A DNA stretch of 64,000 bases, from the NCBI GenBank assembly GCA_033439265.1, contig JAVTVX010000030.1, forward strand, positions 746,501 through 810,500, read 5' to 3'. Below are positions 21,860 to 40,828 of this stretch, piece by piece. Position numbers and translations under genes: made by a program. This DNA is from Dillenia suffruticosa. Taxonomy: Eukaryota > Streptophyta > Magnoliopsida > Dilleniales > Dilleniaceae. The notes below the pieces were generated by a model that saw only the letters and a program-made list of their open reading frames with translations, did no database searches and was not told the DNA's origin. Every line of letters begins with the position of its first letter. Position 1 is the stretch's first letter.

Positions 21860-22334
21860 TAACAAACGAGTTAAAATTAAAACGACGTCGTCTCGCAGTT
21901 CCTCAACCGTCATGTAATCTCTCTCCTGCCTTTTATTGTCTTTTGCCCTTATTCCTATTCCTAACAAGATCTTGACTAATCAATTTTTTTTTTAATAAAT
22001 ACATACATACACACTGTTCATATATCTATTACTCTATATTTACCGATTAATATATTTAATTTAAAAATTAAAATATATATATGATAAAAATAAATTTTTA
22101 TTTAGGTTTACTAATACGATCAAAACATGAGAAAAATTATCTGAATTTCATTTTATAACAGTTTTTGTTTGATCATGTATAGGAAGAACATGTGACATTT
22201 TCCTTAAAAGAACGGGAGTCTTGCTTTGAACCTCAACAAAGACCGGCGGTGGAAGTGTGATTGGTTTGAATGCTTAAGGTGTTGTTCATCCCCTGGTGGA
22301 GAGTTTTGGAGCCTGTGGCATGGTCTCAACTCGG
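21860..22334. other. Intergenic spacer between hydrolase promoter and U2-headed retroposon
   Basis: AT-rich to about 22150, then of more mixed composition. No gene or RNA recognised. The last 15 bases (22320-22334) form the left copy of the duplicated target site of the element that follows. Confidence 0.5.
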
Positions 22335-22529
22335 ATACCTTTCTCAACCTTTTGGCTATGATCAAGTATAGTATTTATTTTTTTCAGTTTAATATCTAAT
22401 ATGTAGGTTATTAGCCCACAGATATTAAATTAATTTTTTCATGGGGAAGGCCCTTTGAGTAGCTTGCTGCTTGGGCCTTCGCATGTCACCTTTGCGTTGC
22501 ACCACTGCATGGCCCTGGCGCACCCATCA
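22335..22529 (+). pseudogene. U2 spliceosomal snRNA pseudogene (head of the retroposon)
   Basis: About 195 nt collinear with plant U2. It begins ATACCTTTCTC, keeps CCTTTTGGCTATGATCAAGT, AGTTTAATATCTAATATG, the Sm-site region AAATTAATTTTTTC, and the 3' end GCGTTGCACCACTGCATGG...CTGGCGCACCC. Many changes are C to T or G to A, for example CAACC for CGGCC and the branch-site recognition element GTAGTA read as ATAGTA. The upstream sequence shows neither the plant snRNA USE (GTCCCACATCG type) nor a TATA box near -30, so it is unlikely to be transcribed as U2. Confidence 0.88.
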
Positions 22530-22753
22530 AAAAAAGAATCAACGTGGGTTGACTTAATTGGATGTGAGGTTGAATTCTCTTAAACATGACCGAATTTCGA
22601 CTATCGTTGAGAATATTGGACTCTCATGTGTATAGAATTTTTCCCGTTAGGAGACCTACCATTCAAAAAAGAACCACTGTAGTGATCAGTCCGGATTAGT
22701 CAGGACGAAACCCATGATACCGGATAGTGTCCAAGATATGGGACCAAAAAAAA
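22335..22753 (+). mobile_element. Composite retroposon: full-length U2 snRNA head joined to a SINE-like body
   Basis: The 15-mer ATGGTCTCAACTCGG occurs at 22320-22334 and again at 22753-22767. The first copy ends exactly where U2 similarity begins (22335). The second follows directly after an A8 run (22746-22753). The insert therefore has a precise U2 5' end, an A-rich junction at about 22529-22535, a body of about 210 bp, a poly(A) tail and a single target-site duplication, the signature of one LINE-assisted insertion. The body carries CCGGATTAGTCAGGACGAAA (about 22691), resembling the conserved 3' domain of many plant SINEs and aligning partly with the SINE at 40615-40810. Possible degraded pol III boxes occur at about 22548-22560 and 22567-22578. 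Whether this is a SINE family or a one-off chimera cannot be decided here. Confidence 0.7.
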
Positions 22754-22767
22754 TGGTCTCAACTCGG

Positions 22768-23558: not shown

Positions 23559-24964
23559 TTACAGACTGCGAAGGAGGATGCCTTCGAATGTAATTCCTGG
23601 TCCAAATGCTAAGGCAAGCCCCCATTCTTCACCTTCTCTTTTCAGTTCCTCCTTCATGTACTCCATGACGTAAAAGATCGTGTTACTACTGACATTTCCG
23701 AAGTCCATTAATGCCCTTCTGCTGCACTCAAGTTTTGTGGCTTTTAAGTTAAGAGAGCTCTCCAATCGATTGAGAATTGCAGGTCCGCCAGGATGCACGG
23801 CCCAGAATAATTCATTGAACTCGTTTAAACCAGCCTTTGCCATGAGCTTTTTGCAAAACTCTTCAATGTGGTCTTCAATCTTTTGAGGGAGATCTCTACC
23901 GAGTCTGAAGTTAATGCCCTCTTCTGAGAGACGGCCATCGATTACATTTTGTGTTCCTGGGAGGAACTGTTGAACTGCATAGTTTAGTTCCATGAAAGGA
24001 CATTCTTTACCAGGTACAGGGTCAGCGCCAATGATAACAGCTGCTGCCCCATCTCCAAAAAGTGCCGCACCCACAAGGTCATATGGACGGTCCTTGTTTG
24101 GAGGACGAAAACCAAGGATGGTGGTTTCAGATGTTGTTACTAGAACTCGGCTTCCAGGGTTGTTTTCTGCTATATCCTTGGCAACCCGAAGGCCGGTAAC
24201 ACCACCATAACAGCCAAGAAAATATAGCATCACACGACCAACATCACTCCTCAAGCCAAGCTGACTGGCAAGGTAGAGGTCACCACCAGGTAATCGTATC
24301 TCACTTGAAGAGACATAAACAATATGAGTAATGTCTTCTGCTGGCCTACCCCATTCTGTAATACAAGCAAGGCTTGCCTCCATTGCCATAGCAATTACTG
24401 CTGGATTTGCAATCTCCAGCCTTTGTTTAATTGTTGGGGAGCCCTCAGTTGCCAGCTCAGGATACTTGTCTAGGATCTCTCTAGACATGACTGTGTACCT
24501 CGTCTTCACAGTTGTTGTTTTACCTAGCAAAGTAAAACCAAAAAAGAAAAGAAAAAAGTGAGTCCAGTTCATATCTATCGAAGAGTGTAACTTTGCTCGA
24601 TGGAGTTCAGCATCCATAAGATACCAAGTATGACCAATAGAGTAAATTCTCTTCATAGGGTCCAACAGTTTCACCTCAATTATTCTATGTTTCAGTAAAA
24701 AGTATCAAGAACAAAATTAACCAATCAAATATCAAGAAGTTCAGAAAAACAGTTTTGCTTACACAGGCGCTCCAACTTTTCCTTGATGGCCAAGTCCTCA
24801 CACTTGGTGTCACGAAAATACCCCTCCACTAAACAATCTTGTGGTATGACTTGGCTGGGGAATGCTTTGCCAATTGCAAGCACTGTTGCCTTCCCTGGAT
24901 TAGGTACTCGTTTGGTAGTGGCATGGTGGTGCTTGGAAGTGCCCTTCCTATGAGTTTCCGACAT
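23559..24964 (-). CDS. LAP6: Anther-specific type III polyketide synthase (PKSA/LAP6)
   Basis: Chalcone-synthase-like enzyme that condenses fatty acyl-CoA starters with malonyl-CoA to alkylpyrones, precursors of sporopollenin in tapetum and pollen exine. Two exons: 24763-24964 and 23559-24523, giving 388 residues; Arabidopsis LAP6 is about 395. The intron splits a Cys codon (T|GT), the position conserved across the CHS superfamily. The catalytic triad is present: Cys about 172 in YFLGCYGGVTG, His in WAVHPGGPAIL, Asn in GNVSSN. The C-terminal loop AFGPGITFEG is intact. TEGSPTIKQRLEIAN and SSSEIRLPGGDLY favour PKSA/LAP6 over PKSB/LAP5. In-frame Met codons at 24967 and 24991 could extend the start. 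No orthologue is expected at this locus in Arabidopsis, where LAP6 is on chromosome 1. Confidence 0.93.
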
Positions 24965-27683: not shown

Positions 27684-27756
27684 GCGCCTGTAGCTCAGTG
27701 GATAGAGCGTCTGTTTCCTAAGCAGAAGGTCGTAGGTTCGACCCCTACCTGGCGCG
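27684..27756 (+). tRNA. tRNA-Arg (anticodon CCT)
   Basis: 73 nt, no intron. D-arm GCTC...GAGC with AGTGGATA loop, anticodon stem TCTGT/GCAGA with loop TTCCTAA (anticodon CCT, reads AGG), T-arm GTAGG-TTCGACC-CCTAC, acceptor GCGCCTG paired with CTGGCGC (one T-T mismatch at the sixth pair) and discriminator G. The internal A box (TAGCTCAGTGG) and B box (GGTTCGACCCC) are intact. A CAA motif lies just upstream and T-runs just downstream, as in active plant tRNA genes. Confidence 0.97.
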
Positions 27757-40596: not shown

Positions 40597-40828
40597 CACA
40601 TAATAGATGACTTTTTTTTTTATACCATAGCTAGACCACCGACCTAATATCCAGAATTTCGATCCGATTAATCTGGATCGACCTCTTGTAGGGTCTAATT
40701 GAGGGGGCATGTCTCTCAGCGCTGATTTTTTCGTTCCTATGGGGGATCGAAATCCTGACAATGGTTAAGGGACGTCAATTTTCGAACCAACTGAACTATC
40801 AAACGTTGGTCACATAATAGATGACTTT
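40597..40828 (-). mobile_element. tRNA-type SINE with intact target-site duplication
   Basis: CACATAATAGATGACTTT occurs at 40597-40614 and 40811-40828, an 18-bp direct repeat flanking a ~196-bp element. Read on the minus strand the element begins ACCAACG and has the pol III A box TAGTTCAGTTGG (perfect to consensus). A B-box-like GATTTCGATCCCC follows about 35 nt on. Near its 3' end is AGATTAATCGGATCGAAA, related to the conserved 3' domain of many angiosperm SINEs. It ends in a poly(A) run (T run on the plus strand at 40612-40621). It lies about 300 bp upstream of the CCD7 TATA box. Confidence 0.88.

Follow-up and report, generated by a model that had tools for sequence, protein, structure and literature searches.

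Introduction

Chimeras of a small nuclear RNA (snRNA) with a retroelement, snRNA::L1 and snRNA::Alu, are known products of the LINE machinery (PMC4476161, PMC13174262). In the first of these accounts, template switching mostly concerns U6 and U6atac, U5 being involved in three cases, and the choice between one and two events is named as ambiguous for tripartite chimeras; one U6atac/Alu joint that lacks a target-site duplication (TSD) has an additional adenine, which is taken there as a hint of two events (PMC4476161). Template switching was also the explanation given for WEIRD::Mg-SINE (PMC2104539), and snRNA-derived heads of SINEs are mentioned in two papers (PMC7245038, PMC13174262). Among angiosperm SINEs a conserved 3' Angio-domain of 37 bp has been described (PMC9033089). 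Among the papers listed by searches of the open-licence literature, with most subscription journals outside it, we found no plant snRNA::SINE chimera. Crocodilian SINEs with snRNA-derived heads, reportedly described by Kojima in 2015, are said to form multicopy families.

Here we describe a locus of Dillenia suffruticosa at which a U2 snRNA copy precedes a SINE. The window, that is, the whole stretch of DNA that was analysed, comprises 64,000 nucleotides of contig JAVTVX010000030.1 (positions 746,501 to 810,500, forward strand), and coordinates given without a locus or contig name refer to it.

Sequence searches and samples

The assembly searched comprises 596 Mb in 37 contigs. The SINE queries returned 1020 to 1729 first-look candidates per search, and the best 40 were scored in each; the 83 other SINE copies read are the best matches to the window copy, to its joint or to L048, and are a non-random sample. 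Fifty U2-like loci were read, the window's own included, a set that leaves out seven of the 46 RF00004 matches and ten matches in a tandem array; in one U2 search of the genome the best 40 of 103 candidates were scored. For the TSD screen, the sequence behind the A-tail was compared with that preceding the SINE in 84 copies. General background was provided by the consensus of the A and B boxes of internal Pol III promoters, the latter GWTCRANNC, by the motif of the plant snRNA upstream element (USE), used for the promoter check, and by the letter sequence of the Angio-domain.

Structure of the insertion

The insertion lies on the plus strand at 22320-22767. The preliminary description had placed a full-length U2 directly behind a 15-mer that recurs at the far end, and both observations were borne out: ATGGTCTCAACTCGG stands at 22320-22334 and again, as an exact direct repeat, at 22753-22767, the two copies being identical, 433 bp apart and on the outside of U2 and SINE, and the U2 retrocopy (22335-22528) corresponds to the Rfam model RF00004 from its first to its last position (1-192; 121.9 bits, E 3.5e-24). 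An A-tail-like junction, A7GA (22529-22537), leads from the 3' end of U2 to the 5' end of a tRNA-type SINE of 208 bp (22538-22745; the start may be set at 22538 or 22539), and both U2 and SINE are complete at both ends. Behind the SINE follows an A7 tail (22746-22752). The A-rich junction had already been recognised in the preliminary description, whereas the A8 tail given there shortens to seven A because the 3' repeat itself begins with the eighth. The piece CCGGATTAGTCAGGACGAAA of the SINE 3' domain (22691-22710, plus strand) occurs nowhere else in the window, even when three mismatches are allowed.

In the neighbourhood, an ORF with chalcone/stilbene synthase domains lies on the minus strand at 23559-24674, about 800 bp from the chimera, and a tRNA match (Rfam) on the plus strand at 27684-27756.

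The U2 part and other U2-like loci

The full-length U2 part carries no gene promoter pattern, as would be expected of an RNA copy; the 215 bp upstream of it contain neither the USE pattern nor TATAAA. Among the 50 U2-like loci the USE pattern occurs within 110 bp upstream in eight, a count that is to be read against 110 clean upstream bases in just 26 of them. The reading of the locus as a genuine U2 gene followed by a SINE was rejected, there being no USE or TATAAA upstream and a TSD at U2 +1.

Seven other U2 loci (L034, L086, L090, L096, L097, L099 and L100) have TSDs above the null, whose maximum was 10.5 in 297 mismatched pairings. The supposed TSD of L090, a TA repeat, is possibly spurious; the other six are U2 retropseudogenes with TSDs, and three of them (L034, L086 and L100) have plain A-tails as well. 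Because A-tailed, TSD-flanked U2 retropseudogenes are present here, the LINE machinery of the same genome seems to accept adenylated U2 RNA as a substrate. Among the loci read, L011 is nearest to the window U2, with 10 differences in 121 positions of the comparable part.

A tandem array of U2-like copies lies on contig C30 at about 13183483-13195601, with a spacing of mostly 1199 bp. The U1 search gave 42 matches, mostly in tandem (C11, about 3425485-3471991, spacing often about 1.56 kb), and the U6 search of the assembly at least 48.

The SINE body and its family

The SINE body belongs to a dispersed, multicopy family whose members have TSDs and A-tails. Its consensus contains both boxes of an internal Pol III promoter, namely an A box, TGGCTCAACTG, at position 11 and a B-box-like ATTCGACTC at position 56 with one mismatch to the B-box consensus, and it ends in GGTACC followed by the A-tail. 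In the window SINE the boxes are degraded (A box near 22550, TTCGA core of the B box near 22596). Other copies begin with (A)TCAACGTGGG or ACCAACGTGGG immediately behind their own TSD, which in 68 of the 73 copies that reach a TSD score of at least 9 ends 0-3 nt upstream of CAACGTGGG, and the window SINE starts at the same point. Since the TSDs of the other copies abut the start of the SINE, the body is a complete, independent high-copy tRNA-type SINE that normally lacks a U2 part.

Among the 83 aligned copies the window SINE stands farthest from the consensus (20.2%); its changes are mostly C-to-T and G-to-A, and its divergence at AT sites (2/87) is near the family median. The concern that a perfect TSD does not suit a SINE that has diverged by 20% was dropped because, among the copies that have a TSD, seven of the 15 most decayed keep it exact and because the window copy is so ordinary at AT sites.

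The preliminary description had likened the body to a SINE at 40615-40810. The likeness holds for the 3' domain, for which consensus positions 142-213 align with 40686-40614 at 72.6% (E 2e-5); the rest does not align, and the match is on the minus strand. The element at 40614-40810 (minus) is a member of another SINE family that has the 3' domain in common with the SINE of the chimera. At another locus, L141, GTCCCACATTGG and a TATA-like A-run (294-365), which resemble a plant snRNA promoter, lie directly upstream of a SINE copy that begins at 366.

An adjacent TSD (score at least 9, within 60 bp) was found in 73 of the 83 other copies, the null being seven of 487 mismatched pairings. With a lenient score of at least 7 (null 95% point 7, maximum 9.5) it was found in 75 of the 84 copies, and when the TSD was allowed into the A-run in 74 of the 83 others, the null then being 28 of 487 mismatched pairings. 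The misses include script errors: L040 gave a partial match, and in L045 a TSD is seen by eye behind an interrupted tail. The TSD is 14-17 nt long in 45 of 74 copies, which makes the 15 nt of the window copy usual; the whole range, 10-23 nt in these 74, is partly a product of the score limit of 9, which hides shorter TSDs. The A-runs are 4-33 long across the 84 copies.

One insertion event or two

The layout is probably the result of one insertion in which a chimeric cDNA was placed by target priming and LINE machinery. The preliminary description had drawn joint insertion of the two parts from the single TSD, and it keeps its place as the best-supported reading, though not as a necessary one, insertion of the SINE into the A-tail of U2 being a possible alternative. 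The TSD of the window copy is exact and stands at the outer ends, at the 5' end of U2, 205 bp farther out than the SINE start; its score is 15, whereas none of the 249 mismatched flank pairings that served as the null for such far TSDs, searched up to 500 bp, scored above 12.0. No adjacent TSD was found at the U2/SINE joint, where most other copies have theirs, so that a single TSD surrounds both parts with none between them, an A-only TSD at the joint being conceivable. There is, further, a single 3' A-run of 8, counting the first TSD base. As the A-run is 8 or shorter in 20 of the 84 copies, such a run is usual for one tail, and two tails would need shrinkage. Tail and joint thus favour one event; against it, an A-rich joint would also be expected from a SINE inserted into the A-tail of U2.

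According to that second reading, which we regard as unlikely though the most serious of the alternatives, a U2 retropseudogene with an A-tail came first and the SINE later entered this tail with an A-only TSD. The A-tailed U2 retropseudogenes with TSDs described above would provide the first step and the A-rich joint would follow from the second. That nesting happens is evident from L039, where a SINE (1498-1740) sits in the A-run of another SINE. This natural control for a nested insertion has A-runs of 11 and about 23, and an A-only TSD plus one C after the A-run on both sides. At the window locus, by contrast, the A7GA of the joint is not repeated downstream of the SINE, and the 3' A-run of 8 would have to hold both the tail of the SINE and a copy of the A-only TSD. 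Such a TSD, at most 7-9 nt, would also be short against the family range, a weak argument because the score limit partly makes that range. On tail and joint, nesting therefore fits less well than one event.

The divergence of the two parts does not decide between one event and nesting, as its outcome depends on the U2 source that is assumed. With L011 as the source, which covers the 3' part of U2, changes at AT sites are 5/104 in U2 and 2/87 in the SINE (p 0.46); against L013, L023, L004 or the U2 consensus they amount to 10-12 of 105-109 in U2 (p 0.02-0.07). With four of five assumed sources U2 therefore has more AT-site changes than the SINE, as nesting would predict, and the higher count could mean an older U2 or merely a different source variant of U2. 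Transitions at GC sites run the opposite way, the SINE having no fewer of them than U2, which speaks against nesting: U2 has 15/92 and the SINE 36/126 (p 0.037 with L011, 0.05-0.11 with the other assumed sources), in a comparison that methylation, which acts on SINEs, may affect. Equal divergence as proof of one event was dropped, since it holds with L011 as the U2 source only.

A joined transcript could also have existed before retroposition, as a read-through from a donor locus with a SINE just behind a U2 gene; this would likewise leave one TSD and an A-rich joint. We consider it very unlikely, as no such donor occurs among the 50 U2-like loci, a set outside which stand the seven RF00004 and ten array places mentioned above. 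The nearest sense SINE piece behind a U2 at these loci is a 63-bp fragment at L022, about 270 bp downstream.

Least probable of all is a multicopy U2-headed SINE family in the same genome, although the combination of a small-RNA head with a SINE body is that of the crocodilian snRNA-headed SINEs. U2 is directly joined to this SINE at only one of the 50 U2-like loci read, that of the window. Of the 15 candidates found with the joint (22500-22575) as query, all 14 besides the window copy begin downstream of U2; among the best 40 matches scored with the 419-bp query for the whole insert, none of the other 39 covers both parts. Eight further SINE copies lack an adjacent TSD, and no far TSD above the null occurs in them either, the comparison covering only about 350 bp upstream for some; an Rfam scan of these eight loci and of L075 found no family. 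Further copies with the same head-body joint and separate TSDs are thus absent among the matches listed. The preliminary description had proposed searches of this kind and had left two outcomes, a new class of plant U2-headed SINEs if multicopy and a one-off chimera if single; among the 50 U2-like loci and the matches listed, no second joint appeared, and it is the one-off chimera that agrees with the result. Finally, insertion of U2 upstream of a finished SINE was rejected because the 15-mer would then stand between the two parts, where there is none.

Mechanism

Under the favoured reading of a single insertion, L1-type machinery would have primed on the A-tail of the SINE RNA by target-primed reverse transcription, and the cDNA would have run to the normal 5' end of the SINE. 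There the enzyme would have jumped end to end to an oligoadenylated U2 snRNA, entering it at its 3' end, with U2 then copied to +1 and the insertion closed. The order was probably this one, the SINE first and then the jump to oligoadenylated U2 RNA; an alternative is that the two RNAs were ligated before reverse transcription, which would give an identical product. RNA ligation has been named for U6/L1 and Alu/L1 (PMC13174262). Within the same SINE family, L075 (1478-1711 in SINE orientation) may record a further template jump: within its TSD, on the 5' side, about the first 21-23 nt of the SINE occur a second time.

U2 genes have external promoter elements only. In the 215 bp upstream the insert has no U2 promoter pattern, and its own Pol III start, that of the SINE, should lie downstream of U2; for both reasons it should not multiply in U2-headed form. 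Pol III transcription of the insert would begin at the SINE and lose the U2 head, which would explain the single copy.

It is possible, if rather improbable, that such end-to-end jumps in plants time and again place adenylated U2, and other small RNAs, before SINEs through the LINE machinery; the window copy would then belong to a class of plant snRNA::SINE chimeras and represent a step from which a new snRNA-headed SINE could arise.

Comparison with known systems

If one event produced the insertion, the LINE machinery of plants, like that of animals and fungi, can link a SINE with a spliceosomal RNA in a single step, the partner here being U2 where U6 is usual. The locus would then represent an early, raw stage in a possible exchange of SINE heads, and it would suggest why this copy did not spread, since U2 brings no internal promoter.

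The SINE body itself is like the tRNA-derived SINEs of angiosperms, with an A/B-box-like head, a conserved 3' domain that may correspond to the Angio-domain, an A-tail, TSDs and many copies, and the window copy differs from them in its extra 5' U2 part. It shares with the crocodilian snRNA-headed SINEs an snRNA before the SINE body; those are multicopy, whereas one copy of the window chimera was found. The fungal WEIRD::Mg-SINE of Magnaporthe grisea likewise has a non-coding RNA and a SINE within one TSD (12 bp), but its SINE is 5'-truncated and its head is another RNA (PMC2104539). In the mammalian U6/L1, U5/L1 and U6atac/Alu chimeras the arrangement is that of the window: the snRNA is 5' and in sense orientation, an A-tailed retroelement is 3', and one TSD surrounds both (PMC4476161, PMC13174262). 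The chimera described here differs from these in its plant host, in U2 in place of mostly U6, in a tRNA-type SINE where those have L1 or Alu, and in having both parts at full length with an A-rich joint between them.
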